From Streptococcus alactolyticus (GTDB taxonomy: Bacteria > Bacillota > Bacilli > Lactobacillales > Streptococcaceae): 64,000 bases of DNA. Position 1 is the stretch's first letter. The number at the start of each line of letters is the position of its first letter. The position numbers were made by a program, and so were the translations under genes. The notes under the pieces are model-generated. The model had not been told where the DNA came from. It was given only the letters and a program-made list of their open reading frames with translations, and did not search any database. Shown piece by piece: positions 22,713 to 52,939 of the stretch. Location: positions 1 to 64,000 of the forward strand of contig NZ_JAAXMT010000005.1 of the NCBI RefSeq assembly GCF_012277075.1, given 5' to 3'.

Positions 22713-22743
22713 AAGAGAGAACATTAAACGTTCTCTCTTTTTC
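22713..22743 (+). terminator. Intrinsic terminator after rplT (IS110 target site)
   Basis: Stem AAGAGAGAAC / GTTCTCTCTT with a 7-base loop, then T. The T-tract (22738-22742) is where the first IS110 copy joins the chromosome, leaving the terminator intact. Confidence 0.9.
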
Positions 22744-22918
22744 TACCTTTTGTCAAGCATATCAACGATTTCTAGAAGAAATCATTATCAGAAGCTACTT
22801 AATTCAACCAGTAGAGAAGTTATTTCTTTGACTTAACAGAGAAAAAGTGCACAACTAAATAACACCTTAGCTAGCTACATTTTTGAAAAGGTGTTACAAT
22901 AATATGGCATACACAATT

Positions 22919-23888
22919 TTAGCGATTTTGGGTTGAAGTGTAATCGTAAAGCTTGTTATGCGTTATGAGGTAATACATTGTCCGAATAAGGCGATGTATA
23001 GAGGCAATCGTATGTGGCTTCGTTGAAGTTGTTTGCGATTGTCTTTTTCGTATCCCATAGAAGTCTGCAATATGGCAAGGATTAGTATGGCTAGCCGCAG
23101 CGATGTTGTGAATACACTTAAACAGAATCTTTCTAGCGTAGGGCTTACCACGCTTGGTAATGTGTTCCTTAACGAGGAAGTTTCCAGACTCATAGTGCCG
23201 TAAGTCGATACCGATAAAAGCATTGATTTGATTGGCAGACTGTAAACGGCGGATATCTCCAAGTTCACCAATCATACTTGTCGCAGTTGTCTCAGCGATG
23301 CCAGGAATAGAAAGCAGAATCTCATACTCTGGTAAAGGCTGAGCTAATTCCACCATTTGCTCAAGAACAGCTTGTCTTTGTTCAGAAAGTCTGAGTAGTT
23401 CTTTGGCATAGTAACGAACTTCTTCAAGTATTGGAGAGTTTTTCTTGACGGAACAATAAGACTGAGTGGCTAGTGCTGCAAGCTTTTGTGCTAAGTAAGC
23501 CACGCGTTTCGTAATAACTTATAGCATACATTATACGAAGTTATACGAGCTTACGATTCAGTACAAATTGAGATATCGCTAATGTTTCGGCATTGATTTT
23601 ATCCGTTGTACGGACACGCAAACTGTCTAATTGCTTTTTAGCTTCCAAAGGAGTTAGCTGTGTATAATCGTATCCATTTTCTTCAAGAAATGCTTGAAGA
23701 CGATGCGAATAGACACCTGTTGCTTCAAAAATGATCTCGGGCTTTTGAACGTTTTTTAAATCATCTAATAGGCGAGTAAAACCGATAGCGTCATTTGGCA
23801 TGGTGTATCCATGAATTTTCTCGCCATTGATGACAATAGCCACCTCTGAACTTGCCTTACTTACATCAATTCCAAATACTGTACGCAT
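22919..23888 (-). pseudogene. IS110-family transposase, copy 1, interrupted by linker sequence
   Basis: The N-terminal part (from MRTVFGIDVSKASSEV at 23888) runs to FVLNRK. It is then replaced by the 39-base linker and resumes at RVAYLAQKL, continuing to the normal end at 22919. Compared with copy 2, roughly residues 114-205 are missing. Because the inserted bases look like a library linker, the gene in the living strain is probably intact; as assembled it is split into two reading frames. Confidence 0.85.
23510..23548. other. loxP-type 454 paired-end linker sequence (assembly artefact)
   Basis: The 39 bases contain the loxP spacer GCATACAT and the arm TATACGAAGTTAT exactly, a left arm shortened by three bases (ATAACTT then ATA), and the flanking CGTA and ACGA of the circularisation linker used in 454 Titanium mate-pair libraries as I recall it. 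It replaces 272 bases present in copy 2 (52065-52336). Confidence 0.88.
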
Positions 23889-23918
23889 CATATTACCTCT
23901 TTGTCTTGAATGATTCCT

Positions 23919-24092
23919 TGTTTTAGTGATTTCATTTTCAATACTCAACATCTTGTGTCCTACATACTTTGATAACATTCTTCCTAAAACAGGTGTCTTG
24001 CCAGTTTTTGATACGACGTCTAGCGTCAAAAGAGAACTCGACTTAACAAGACACCACTACTTTAACATAAAAGAAAAAGTAGAGAGTACTTT
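23919..24092 (-). ncRNA. Candidate bridge RNA of IS110 copy 1
   Basis: Same architecture as the copy 2 RNA at 52707-52880. The target-loop stem is GGTGTCTTG / CAAGACACC (23992-24000 and 24047-24055). The guide-like arm reads TTCTCTTTT on the transcript (24028-24036 region), slightly longer than in copy 2, where it reads TTCTCTTGT. The other arm, TCAAAAA, is at 24005-24011. The site occupied by this copy reads TCTCTTTTTG, matching both arms. Confidence 0.6.
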
Positions 24093-24159
24093 CTCCCGTC
24101 GGAGATTTTCTCACTACTAATCTTAGTATGTTTTTGCTATTTTTTGGAATATAAGAATA

Positions 24160-48067: not shown

Positions 48068-51000
48068 ATGCCAAAACGTACAGATATTAAAAAAATTATG
48101 GTGATTGGGTCTGGTCCGATTATTATCGGTCAGGCAGCAGAGTTTGACTATGCGGGAACGCAAGCCTGCTTGGCCCTCAAAGAAGAAGGTTATAGCGTTG
48201 TTCTTGTAAACTCAAACCCTGCCACAATCATGACGGATAAAGAAATTGCAGATAAGGTTTATATCGAACCCATTACAACAGAATTTGTGACACGCATTAT
48301 CCGTAAAGAGCGTCCAGATGCCCTACTACCAACTTTGGGAGGGCAAACAGGTCTTAACATGGCAATGGAATTGTCAAAAGCTGGTATCCTTGATGAATTA
48401 GGTGTTGAATTGTTGGGGACTAAATTATCAGCAATCGACCAAGCCGAAGACCGTGACCTCTTCAAACAATTGATGGAAGACCTTAATCAGCCAATTCCAG
48501 AATCTGAAATTGTTAACACGGTGGAAGAAGCGGTTGATTTTGCAAATACGATTGGCTATCCTGTCATTGTTCGTCCAGCCTTCACCCTTGGTGGTACTGG
48601 TGGTGGTATGTGTGACAATGAAGACGAATTGCGTGAAATCGCTGAAAATGGTTTGAAATTGTCACCAGTAACCCAATGTTTGATTGAACGTTCTATCGCT
48701 GGTTTCAAAGAAATTGAATACGAAGTAATGCGTGATGCGGCAGACAACGCTCTTGTGGTTTGTAACATGGAAAACTTTGACCCAGTGGGTATTCACACGG
48801 GAGATTCAATCGTTTTTGCGCCAACACAAACCCTTTCAGATATTGAAAACCAAATGTTGCGTGACGCTAGCTTGAGCATCATTCGTGCCCTTAAAATCGA
48901 AGGAGGATGTAACGTTCAGTTGGCCCTTGACCCAAATAGCTTCAAGTACTATGTTATCGAAGTTAACCCACGTGTGTCACGTTCATCTGCCCTTGCCTCA
49001 AAAGCAACAGGTTACCCAATTGCGAAATTAGCAGCGAAAATCGCGGTTGGTTTGACACTTGATGAAATGGTCAATCCAGTTACTGGTACGACTTATGCCA
49101 TGTTTGAACCAGCTCTTGACTATGTGGTTGCAAAAATCCCACGTTTCCCATTTGATAAATTTGAACATGGTGAACGTCGCTTAGGAACTCAGATGAAAGC
49201 GACTGGTGAGGTTATGGCAATCGGTCGTAACATTGAAGAGTCACTTTTGAAAGCTTGTCGTTCGCTTGAAATCGGTGTTTACCACAATGAAATGCCTGAT
49301 TTGGCAAATGTAACTGATGATGCTTTGGTTGATAAAATTGTTCGTGCCCAAGATGACCGTCTTTTCTATCTTTCTGAAGCTATCCGCCGTGGCTACACCA
49401 TCGAAGAATTATCTAAATTAACCAAAATTGACCTTTTCTTCTTGGATAAATTGCTTCACATTTTTGAAATTGAGCAAGCCTTGGCTACTAACGTTGGGGA
49501 TATTGCATTGTTGAAAGAAGCCAAACGCAATGGTTTTGCAGACCGTAAAATTGCAGAGCTTTGGAACATGACAGCAGACGAGGTTCGCACACTTCGTACA
49601 GAAAACAAGATTATCCCAGTTTACAAAATGGTGGATACATGTGCAGCTGAATTTGAATCAGAAACACCTTATTTCTATTCAACTTACGAGTGGGAAAATG
49701 AATCTATCAAATCAGGTAAGGAATCAATCTTGGTTCTTGGTTCAGGTCCTATCCGTATTGGTCAAGGGGTTGAGTTTGACTATGCGACGGTTCACTCAGT
49801 GAAAGCTATTCAAGCAGCTGGTTACGAAGCGATTATCATGAACTCAAATCCAGAAACCGTATCAACGGACTTCTCGATTTCAGATAAACTTTACTTTGAA
49901 CCATTGACCTTTGAAGACGTGATGAACGTCATCGAATTGGAACAACCTAAAGGGGTTATCGTGCAATTTGGTGGTCAAACAGCTATTAATTTGGCAGAAC
50001 CATTGTCTAAAGCTGGTGTGAAAATCCTTGGAACACAGGTAGAAGACCTTGACCGTGCCGAAGACCGTGACCTCTTTGAACAAGCGTTGAAAGCCTTGAA
50101 TATCCCACAACCACCAGGACAAACAGCAACAAACGAAGAAGAAGCGGTTGAAGCAGCCCGCAATATTGGTTTCCCAGTGCTTGTTCGTCCTTCATATGTC
50201 TTGGGTGGACGTGCCATGGAAATCGTTGAAAATGAAAACGATCTTCGTTCTTACATGAGAACTGCCGTTAAAGCCAGTCCAGACCATCCAGTCTTGGTTG
50301 ACTCTTACATTATTGGTCGTGAGTGCGAAGTTGATGCCATTTCTGACGGCAAAGACGTTTTGATTCCAGGTATCATGGAACACATCGAACGTGCGGGTGT
50401 TCACTCAGGTGACTCAATGGCTGTTTACCCACCACAAACCCTTTCAAAAGAAATCCAAGAAACGATTGCGGATTATACAAAACGCTTGGCAATTGGTTTG
50501 AACTGTATCGGAATGATGAACATCCAATTTGTTATCAAAGATGAAACGGTATATGTTATCGAGGTAAATCCTCGTGCCAGCCGTACCGTGCCATTCCTTT
50601 CTAAAGTAACAAATATCCCAATGGCGCAAGTAGCTACCCAATTGATTCTTGGTAAATCATTAGCTGACCTTGGTTACAAAGATGGGCTTTATCCTGAGTC
50701 TGACTTTGTACACGTCAAAGCACCAGTCTTCTCATTCACCAAACTAGCCAAGGTAGATAGCCTTCTTGGTCCTGAAATGAAATCAACTGGTGAGGTTATG
50801 GGTTCAGACCAAACCCTTGAAAAAGCTCTTTACAAAGCCTTTGAAGCGTCTTACTTCCACTTGCCAGCCTTTGGTAACGTTGTCTTTACGGTATCTGATG
50901 ATAGCAAAGAAGAAGCTCTTAGTTTGGCGAAACGCTTTGCCAACGTTGGTTACAGCATCTTTGCAACACAAGGAACAGCGGACTTCTTTGCCAAACACGG

Positions 51001-51247
51001 TTTAGATGCAACAGTGGTTAATAAACTCGGTGAAGATGATGATAACGATATTCCTGCTCTTGTTCGTACAGGAAAAGTTCAAGCTATTATCAATACCGTT
51101 GGTACTAAGAGAAGTTGTGACGAAGATGGTGCTGCTATCCGTAGCTCTGCCATTGAACACGGTGTGCCACTCTTTACCGCTTTGGATACCGCAGATGCTA
51201 TGATTCGTGTACTTGAAAGCCTCAGCTTCACAACTCAAGCCATCTAA
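48068..51247 (+). CDS. carB: Carbamoyl-phosphate synthase large subunit
   Basis: A 1059-residue synthetase with two ATP-grasp halves: first [19 protein letters not shown] near 13 and [17 protein letters not shown] near 172; second [18 protein letters not shown] near 558 and [16 protein letters not shown] near 709. A C-terminal MGS-like regulatory domain follows ([17 protein letters not shown]). It is the last gene of the pyr operon and ends in a terminator that is the target of IS110 copy 2. Confidence 0.97.
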
Positions 51248-51266
51248 AGTTAATAAAACTATATCG

Positions 51267-51297
51267 AAAGAGGAGATTCTCAAAATCTTCTCTTTTT
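51267..51297 (+). terminator. Intrinsic terminator after carB (IS110 target site)
   Basis: A 12-bp stem AAAGAGGAGATT / AATCTTCTCTTT (one G-U), 5-base loop, T-tract at 51293-51297. The IS joins at this tract. Confidence 0.88.
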
Positions 51298-51473
51298 CTA
51301 CCTTTTGTCAAGCATATCAACGATTTCTAGAAGAAATCATTATCAGAAGCTACTTAATTCAACCAGTAGAGAAGTTATTTCTTTGACTTAACAGAGAAAA
51401 AGTGCACAACTAAATAACACCTTAGCTAGCTACATTTTTGAAAAGGTGTTACAATAATATGGCATAAACAATT

Positions 51474-52676
51474 TTAGCGATTTTGGGTTGAAGTGTAATC
51501 GTAAAGTTTGTTATGCGTTATGAGGTAATACATTGTCCGAATAAGGCGATGTATAGAGGCAATCGTATGTGGCTTCGTTGAAGTTGTTTGCGATTGTCTT
51601 TTTCGTTTCTCATAGAAGTCTGCAATATGGCAAGGATTAGTATGGCTAGCCGCAGCGATGTTGTGAATACACTTAAACAGAATCTTTCTAGCGTAGGGAT
51701 TACCACGCTTGGTAATGTGTTCCTTAACGAGGAAGTTTCCAGACTCATAGTGCCGTAAGTCGATACCGATAAAAGCATTGATTTGATTGGCAGACTGAAA
51801 ACGGCGGATATCTCCAAGTTCACCAATCATGCTTGTCGCAGTTGTCTCAGCGATGCCAGGAATAGAAAGCAGAATCTCATACTCTGGTAAAGGCTGAGCT
51901 AATTCCACCATTTGCTCAAGAACAGCTTGTCTTTGTTCAGAAAGTCTGAGTAGTTCTTTGGCATAGTAACGAACTTCTTCAAGTATTGGAGAGTTTTTCT
52001 TGACGGTACAATAAGACTGATTGGCTAGTGCTGCAAGCTTTTGTGCTAAGTAAGCCACGCGTTTGTTGGAAATGCGTTTTGAAGTAGATTGCCGAATACC
52101 TTCTAAGGGCTCATCTTTACTTAACTCAAGCACGAAGTCCTTGTAAGGAAACGTCATGACCAAGTTCCAGTATTGCTCCCTAGTTGGCGTTGATAAGATA
52201 TTTTCCATCTCAGGAAAGGTAACTTGTAAGACCTTGTGCAATCGATTCTTAGTGCGGACAATATCCTCCGTTAAGTTCTGATAGAATCTACTTAAATCGC
52301 GCAGTTCTTGATAGACTTCTTCTTGGATATAAGTTGGCTTACGATTCAGTACAAATTGAGATATCGCTAATGTTTCGGCATCGATTTTATCCGTTTTACG
52401 GACACGCAAACTGTCTAATTGCTTTTTAGCTTCCAAAGGATTTAGCTGTGTATAAGCGTATCCATTTTCTTCAAGAAATGCTTGAAGACGACGCGAATAG
52501 ACACCTGTTGCTTCAAAAATGATCTCGGGCTTTTGAACGGTTTTTAAATCATCTAATAGGCGAGTAAAACCGATAGTGTCATTTGGCATGGTGTATCCAT
52601 GAATTTTCTCGCCATTGATGACAATAGCCACCTCTGAACTTGCCTTACTGACATCAATTCCAAATACTGTACGCAT
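51474..52676 (-). CDS. IS110-family transposase (DEDD recombinase)
   Basis: 400 residues. The RuvC-like DEDD domain shows D8 in FGIDVSKAS, E55 in IFEATGVYS, and D96/D99 in KTDKIDAETLA. A helical middle section follows. The C-terminal Transposase_20 part has LLSIPGIAETTATSMIGELGDI and the candidate catalytic Ser312 in RHYESGNFLVKEHITKRG. The frame is open upstream for 47 codons, but that stretch is the bridge-RNA segment. AGAGGT sits 7 bases before the ATG I chose. It catalyses RNA-guided insertion if the upstream RNA is a bridge RNA. Confidence 0.92.
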   Translation of the reverse strand: MRTVFGIDVSKASSEVAIVINGEKIHGYTMPNDTIGFTRLLDDLKTVQKPEIIFEATGVYSRRLQAFLEENGYAYTQLNPLEAKKQLDSLRVRKTDKIDAETLAISQFVLNRKPTYIQEEVYQELRDLSRFYQNLTEDIVRTKNRLHKVLQVTFPEMENILSTPTREQYWNLVMTFPYKDFVLELSKDEPLEGIRQSTSKRISNKRVAYLAQKLAALANQSYCTVKKNSPILEEVRYYAKELLRLSEQRQAVLEQMVELAQPLPEYEILLSIPGIAETTATSMIGELGDIRRFQSANQINAFIGIDLRHYESGNFLVKEHITKRGNPYARKILFKCIHNIAAASHTNPCHIADFYEKRKRQSQTTSTKPHTIASIHRLIRTMYYLITHNKLYDYTSTQNR

Positions 52677-52706
52677 CATATTACCTCTTTGTCTTGAATG
52701 ATTCCT

Positions 52707-52880
52707 TGTTTTAGTGATTTCATTTTCAATACTCGACATCTTGTGTCCTACATACTTTGATAACATTCTTCCTAAAACAGGTGTCTTGCCAGTTTTTGAT
52801 ACGACGTCTAGCGTCACAAGAGAACTCGACTTAACAAGACACCACTACTTTAACATAAAAGAAAAAGTAGAGAGTACTTT
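52707..52880 (-). ncRNA. Candidate bridge RNA of IS110 copy 2
   Basis: Read on the minus strand: a 5' hairpin TACTTT/AAAGTA type (52864-52880), then loop 1 closed by GGTGTCTTG / CAAGACACC (52835-52843 with 52780-52788), then loop 2 closed by TGTTTTAG / CTAAAACA (52772-52779 with 52707-52714). Each loop holds an inner 4-bp hairpin with five loop bases (GACG-CGTC; GACA-TGTC). Loop 1 arms are TTCTCTT and TCAAAAA, matching the left half and complementary to the right half of the insertion site TTCTCTTTTTGA. Loop 2 has AGTATGT, equal to the element end at 52913-52919, and GAAAA, complementary to the TTTTC at the other end. Confidence 0.72.
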
Positions 52881-52939
52881 CTCCCGTCGAAGATTTTCTC
52901 ACTACTAATCTTAGTATGTTTTTGACGTTCAAAAGCAAA

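Follow-up and report, generated by a model that had tools for sequence, protein, structure and literature searches.

The window analysed here, a stretch of 64,000 nucleotides from Streptococcus alactolyticus, carries on its minus strand an IS110-family element at 51289..52924, whose limits were placed where the alignment with copies from the same genome stops; the exact ends are uncertain to within a few A/T bases at the core that they share. The element encodes a DEDD recombinase (transposase) of 401 amino acids (51474..52679, minus strand), which matches both Pfam domains of the family (PF01548, E 5e-33; PF02371, E 1.4e-20) as well as the NCBIfam profile NF033542, named RNA-guided transposase, at 235.5 bits against a cut-off of 140. 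A search of the sequences of solved structures with the recombinase returned ISCro4 and IS621 only; compared with the 326 amino acids of the IS621 protein it is longer, and the two are 28-32% identical in the two main aligned parts. The SG of the G--P----SG motif is present, with GIDLRHYESG here aligned to GLTPRRYESG in IS621, and the P of the published motif is replaced by L. The left element end (LE) reads ACATACT (52913..52919, minus strand) and the right element end (RE) reads TTGACAAAAGGTAGAAAA (51294..51311, minus strand), which includes TTGACA. When the terminal 70 nt of both ends were compared, no sub-terminal inverted repeats beyond chance were found; the longest exact inverted match, the 8-nt CTTTTTCT, lies at unequal distances from the two ends and was equalled or passed in 38 of 500 shuffles.

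Beyond the right end lies a gene (48068-51247) that, from its sequence, we take to be carB. It is followed by a terminator-like hairpin on the plus strand (51266..51296; 13 pairs, -8.5 kcal/mol) that includes the RE-side half of the predicted target and whose T-run is completed by the element end. The core and the LE-side half of the target are at 52920..52926 (plus strand). With the element inserted, the hairpin at this junction still scored as terminator-like in a simple scan, in which 3 such sites were seen against 1.3 expected. The same genome holds 11 further matches to the element, whole or partial, two of which are the halves of one interrupted copy in the same window (22734-24136); that copy also sits in a terminator-like hairpin.

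Upstream of the recombinase gene, the minus strand is predicted to encode an RNA made up of a 5' hairpin, a target loop and a donor loop, in that order. The 5' hairpin is followed by a T-run (52861..52911) and its stem shows compensatory changes in relatives. The outer stem of loop 1 (5' strand 52835..52843, 3' strand 52780..52788) encloses target arm 1, TTCTCTT (52818..52824), which complements the RE-side flank as read on the transposase-sense strand; an inner hairpin, GACG-CTAGA-CGTC (52803..52815); and target arm 2, TCAAAAA (52793..52799), of the same sense as the LE-side flank. Both target arms were placed by covariation and permutation, as described below. Loop 2 follows the same plan, with an outer stem (5' strand 52772..52779, 3' strand 52707..52714), donor arm 1, AGTATGT (52750..52756), which is the complement of the left element end, an inner hairpin (52735..52747), and donor arm 2, GAAAA (52723..52727), of the same sense as the right element end GTAGAAAA; all of these features are on the minus strand.

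Folded alone, the RNA is modestly better than its shuffles (z -2.06; 4 of 200 shuffles as good). A consensus fold was also made of homologues: from 84 distinct RNAs of 132-146 nt, a length filter that removed leaders with deletions or insertions, four aberrant ones were taken out, and RNAalifold gave the remaining 80 a value of -19.9 kcal/mol against -4.6 (sd 2.6) in 30 column shuffles. The covariation term of this fold was +1.06, so that within-genus covariation support for the stems is absent, and the stems are conserved, not covarying, inside the genus. In an alignment of 11 deeply diverged RNAs, both partners had changed in 17 of 31 predicted pairs and pairing was retained. The 5' hairpin accounts for 11 of these, the first inner hairpin for 3 and the second for 2; the remaining one joins the left element end to donor arm 1. 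The outer stems are absent from the consensus of these 11 RNAs; within the genus, each of their pairs is formed in 74 to 80 of the 79-80 sequences compared. A preliminary description of this DNA had proposed the target-then-donor order and the 5' hairpin, and had named a lack of conserved outer-stem pairing among homologues as an argument against itself. Its sequences and coordinates, including AGTATGT at 52913-52919 and TTTTC at 51294-51298, were all correct on recheck, the order and the hairpin are borne out by covariation, consensus fold and deep alignment, and outer-stem pairing is conserved as above, with few two-sided changes. An Rfam search at a loose threshold gave five weak matches, none of them a bridge RNA (best 23.8 bits against a cut-off of 120.3), and Rfam may hold no such family. 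The simple scan also placed a terminator-like match at 52885-52870, inside the 5' hairpin region. This hairpin and its T-run have the look of an intrinsic terminator near the start of the predicted RNA, and may block outside transcription or attenuate a promoter at the circle junction.

Evidence that loop 1 addresses the insertion site comes from comparison of copies. From the same genome, genomes of the genus and named contigs we collected 178 copies, or 142 once identical entries were removed; the leader was matched in 98 of 284 genus genomes, some matches being short, and the 79 named loci of relatives are from Streptococcus. An LE flank was available for 140 of the 142 copies and an RE flank for 94, and five of the 142 may duplicate another entry seen with a different far flank. 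A mutual-information scan compared variable leader columns with 14 flank positions per side, the arms not being preselected. On the LE side (140 rows), the best four pairs, 52798/-5, 52799/-6, 52796/-3 and 52797/-4, are all same-sense and form one diagonal in arm 2, with signals of 0.82 to 0.40 and the next at 0.34. For the RE flank (94 rows), the top four, 52823/+9, 52824/+9, 52819/+5 and 52822/+8, are all complementary and lie in arm 1, with signals of 0.53 to 0.39 and a fifth, off-diagonal signal close behind at 0.35.

Permutation gave the same picture. Arm 2 agreed with the LE flank at 3.33 of 5 positions against 2.18 when shuffled (80 distinct pairs), and arm 1 with the RE flank at 4.02 of 7 against 2.61 (82 distinct pairs), rows with gapped arms being omitted (10 of 140 LE, 1 of 94 RE). 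The observed score was reached in 0 of 20,000 shuffles on each side, counts that are not exact probabilities, since copies related by descent are not independent observations. When each distinct arm was given a single randomly chosen flank, the excess persisted, at 3.54 against 1.78 for 27 LE-side arms and 4.17 against 2.61 for 26 RE-side arms. Since the arms covary with the flanks across copies, the target match is not an accident of one sequence, and the covariation of the loop 1 arms with flanking DNA, which the preliminary description had put forward as a check, is present in the scan and permutation of these 142 copies. Its other concern was that the same arms might sit at unrelated flanks. 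In the same genome, all six readable RE junctions read ...CTC then T; genus-wide there are exceptions, with no more than 3 of 7 positions matched in 35 of 93 RE rows and no more than 2 of 5 in 22 of 130 LE rows. It is possible that these misfit copies are old insertions or reflect exchange between copies.

The sites themselves share a feature that is absent from the preliminary description. In the S. alactolyticus genome, the six readable RE junctions are all hairpins cut in the T-run (-8.1 to -11.2 kcal/mol). Across the collection, a single hairpin of -4 kcal/mol or lower ending at a T-run was found at 42 of 88 distinct RE flanks, compared with 4 of 63 control stretches taken 100 nt further out, whether or not between genes; the other 46 of 88 RE flanks are without a single hairpin at -4 kcal/mol. 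Judged from these flanks, insertion is into the distal part of a terminator-like hairpin, and the usual target is predicted to be its 3' arm and T-run. Tn7 at attTn7 likewise inserts at a transcription terminator as a safe site; unlike the element described here, it relies on a DNA-binding protein to find the site, and it uses one site per genome.

Eight unoccupied exact 12-nt matches to TTCTCTTTTTNA are found in the same genome (reversed control, 3), six of them within open stretches of 123-756 codons. A strong hairpin is present at only one of the eight, and therefore a match to the arms is not enough to mark out a terminator; the pattern would fit either selection against insertions that hit genes or an additional preference for hairpins. 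The contrast between this count and the six hairpins at six occupied junctions lends something to the idea that a protein, or the structure of the terminator hairpin, chooses the site, and that the arms resemble it for another reason such as a captured flank. A preference for palindromes such as REP sequences is also described for other transposases in the accessible text of PMC1525189. Against this, the arms also track sites that lack a hairpin, as in the CAGTTGAC subgroup, and distinct arms pair with distinct sites among leaders that are mostly 80-93% identical to that of the window. We therefore regard site choice by protein or hairpin as very unlikely, and prefer the reading in which the RNA specifies the site.

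In the subgroup without hairpins, the target is CAGTTGAC-AAA-GAGCC; the LE-side half is found in 14 of the 142 copies, and GAGCC in 11 of the 13 CAGTTGAC copies that have an RE flank. The uninterrupted site, CACTACAGTTGAC-3 nt-GAGCC, occurred 22 times, in five of six genomes searched, consistent with insertion that entails no loss beyond a short core. In L271 an uninterrupted site directly follows a fragment of an ISL3 transposase (PF01610, E 2.3e-20), which suggests that the CAGTTGAC subgroup likely aims at ISL3-type ends. Near the subgroup elements of L066 and L085, no ISL3 open reading frame of at least 80 amino acids was seen; the gene upstream of each resembles, by eye, one for a penicillin-binding protein. 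The core was deduced from the CAGTTGAC subgroup because a query of joined flanks found no empty form of the window's own site in 59 genomes. This query matched 14 of the 59, one being the interrupted locus itself, and most of the others covered part of one side. Two short matches of 78% (query 131-178, E 9e-4; G007 and G019) span the junction coordinate; lying far from the flanking-gene matches of those genomes, they were rejected.

A second feature that the preliminary description overlooked is the sense in which the target arms are read. The 5' arm of the streptococcal RNA is the complement of the flanking sequence past the right element end; the 3' arm has the same sequence as the DNA that leads up to the left end. 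In the 83 copies with both flanks, the IS621 rule gave z of -1.6 and 0.8, compared with 10.9 and 7.8 for the inverted rule. The predicted arms are thus read in the opposite sense to those of IS621 and ISEc21. Along the plus strand of the window, the RNA fits the IS621 pairing rule, its 5' arm equal to the left half and its 3' arm complementary to the right half, but the gene and the RNA are on the opposite strand; the cassette is therefore inverted with respect to the target and donor frame of IS621. An ordinary IS621 arrangement, in which the 5' arm equals the LE-side flank and the inversion is an artefact of misplaced ends or low-complexity A/T matches, might be entertained given that short matches arise easily in A/T-rich targets and that the ends are ambiguous by a few bases. 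It is hard to reconcile with the z scores, or with arms containing G and C that match as well (TGAGTCC in L026, GGTGC in L053, GGCTC in L041, GAGGC in L224), and one E. coli IS621 copy compared alongside shows the ordinary order, its 5' arm being ATCGGGCCT. We consider an artefact of this kind exceedingly unlikely, and retain the inverted order. The IS621 copy itself (L127) is odd in having a partial second left end in tandem, the two left ends being directly preceded by ATCAGGCCT and ATCGGGCCT; the second end lies in the first RNA copy, inserted at its target-arm word ATCGGGCCT, as though the element had targeted its own RNA gene.

The inverted order extends beyond streptococci. Among 29 loci of wider relatives, 12 were searched for shared words, representing eight distinct elements of 26-50% identity from other genera of the order; left out of the search were L245 (a further copy of the same element), L251 (altered left end), L231 (layout unrecognisable) and the more distant lineages L232, L234 and L252-L263. 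Exact words of at least 6 bases were found at both arms in six of the 12 loci (L224, L225, L229, L244, L247 and L249), or five of the eight elements, and in these six the order is always inverted, down to 26% identity. L248 and L250 gave a match for the RE arm only, and L221, L222, L226 and L246 gave partial matches by eye or none.

These relatives also bear on loop 2. Within streptococci the element ends and donor arms are nearly invariant. In other genera, an LE end of ACATATT goes with a donor arm of AATATGT (L225) and ACAACCT with AGGTTGT (L229), and RE ends with TAGGAAA, AAGAAAT and TAGAAAA carry the same words in donor arm 2. The complement of the LE end was found at 7 of 7 positions in 10 of 13 elements and at 6 of 7 in L248, L045 and L033; in L045 this word is not at the donor arm and the RE end was not found, and in L222 the RE word lies outside donor arm 2. 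Loop 2 as predicted thus covaries with the element ends in distant relatives, and the donor match proposed in the preliminary description is upheld, both by the position of the arms and by the joint change of loop and ends.

Taken together, because loop 1 varies in step with the insertion site among related copies, the RNA likely guides the element. We estimate the probability at a little over nine in ten that the stretch upstream of the gene encodes a bridge RNA that guides the IS110-family recombinase, its loop 1 matching and covarying with the insertion site and its loop 2 matching the element ends. The bridge-RNA reading of the preliminary description is supported by the tracking of the target by loop 1, that of the ends by loop 2, and the conserved predicted structure.

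How such an element would move can be modelled as follows. Excision as a circle would join RE to LE, and in the modelled junction TTGACA from RE and TAAGAT from LE are separated by 17 nt, which would form a promoter with TTGACA as its -35 box. This promoter would transcribe the RNA and the recombinase, the RNA would base-pair with each strand of the target as well as of the circle junction, and strand exchange by the recombinase would take place at an AA/TT core; the steps from transcript to strand exchange are carried over from work on IS621 and seekRNAs. Insertion would be at TTCTCTTTTTGA. As is visible in the sequence, the T-run is preserved after insertion: the element end supplies T residues, so that the host hairpin keeps its T-run, which would limit harm to the host and stop host transcription from entering the element antisense. 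A reading in which the structured leader is chiefly a 5' UTR attenuator of recombinase expression, with the target match of secondary importance, draws on the hairpin and T-run just after the modelled junction promoter, and is scarcely credible given that a regulator alone would not covary with flanking DNA.

RNAs of this kind, bridge RNAs or seekRNAs, have been known since 2024, and in the accessible text of the two principal sources (PMC11208160 and PMC11187229) the element shares traits with both described groups. Like IS621 (PMC11208160), it has a DEDD recombinase with PF01548 and PF02371, an RNA upstream of the gene, a 5' hairpin, and a target loop then a donor loop, each with two arms for two strands; the IS621 promoter at the circle junction is reported there, and its counterpart here is modelled only. 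The 5' arm of IS621 equals the LE-side flank, pairing with its bottom strand, in contrast to the 5' arm here, which is the complement of the RE-side flank's top strand; the IS110-type rule (5' arm to the LE bottom strand, 3' arm to the RE top strand) does not describe our element. IS621 targets REP elements (PMC11208160), whereas the element here sits at terminator-like hairpins. ISEc21, the one IS110-type element tested in PMC11187229, likewise has an upstream RNA and an IS110-type recombinase; its arm order is the reverse of the IS1111-type, the top-strand match being 3' of the bottom-strand match, the opposite of what is seen here. In the IS1111-type seekRNAs (ISEc11 and others, PMC11187229), the top-strand complement comes first and the bottom second, as here, but that RNA is usually downstream of the gene, whereas here it is upstream, and IS1111-type elements have sub-terminal inverted repeats of 7-17 bp (PMC11208160), here lacking beyond chance. 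Because of this lack and the upstream RNA we do not class the element as IS1111; as predicted, its RNA is placed as in IS110-type elements and its arms are ordered as in the IS1111 type.

It appears likely to us that this combination represents a third bridge-RNA architecture: an IS110-type clade, present both in streptococci and in other genera of their order, whose RNA lies upstream and whose target and donor order is inverted as in IS1111. In streptococci, natural reprogramming (27 distinct LE-side and 26 distinct RE-side arms) would have directed it to the hairpin-distal half of intrinsic terminators, where insertion would rebuild the T-run, and some side branches to the ends of ISL3 elements. 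Natural reprogramming has been reported for ISEc11/ISXne4 (PMC11187229). In the accessible text of the literature searched, we found neither the pairing of an upstream RNA with inverted order, which figures such as Extended Data Fig. 10 of PMC11208160 may already draw, nor terminators as targets of the IS110 family. If this architecture is real, RNA position and arm order are independent traits and not linked marks of the IS110 and IS1111 families, an independence that limits models of the origin of the two, and the geometry of recombinase, RNA and DNA can stay while the gene cassette turns round. The streptococcal copies also provide natural guide-target pairs on which mismatch tolerance and the rules of pairing could be studied, in a lineage distant from IS621. 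Terminators make an ecologically sensible target, being abundant, outside genes and seemingly left with their T-run.

Some leaders depart from the common layout. L071, L077, L083, L086, L112, L113, L120 and L124 have lost sequence between the two inner hairpins, which resemble each other; the single loop that remains combines target arm 1 with donor arm 2 and would match the integrated RE junction. The missing leader segment was not found in seven genomes with the deletion (best E 0.042), compared with a best E of 1.3e-10 or better in five genomes with intact leaders that served as a positive control. These may be dead copies or may use a single-loop guide; one strain holds four of them at four sites. 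L057, L063 and L065 carry insertions of about 100 bases within the loop-2 half of the leader. A more distant IS110 lineage, of 27-28% identity, is represented by L252-L256 (also L232 and L260). All five copies taken from G148 lie within a few bases of CAT (a start codon when read on the opposite strand), beside the Shine-Dalgarno-like CTTCCT, and the leader of this lineage has TTTCTTCCTT beside a hairpin. By eye, this has the appearance of a bridge RNA that targets ribosome-binding sites, with an IS621-like arm order.
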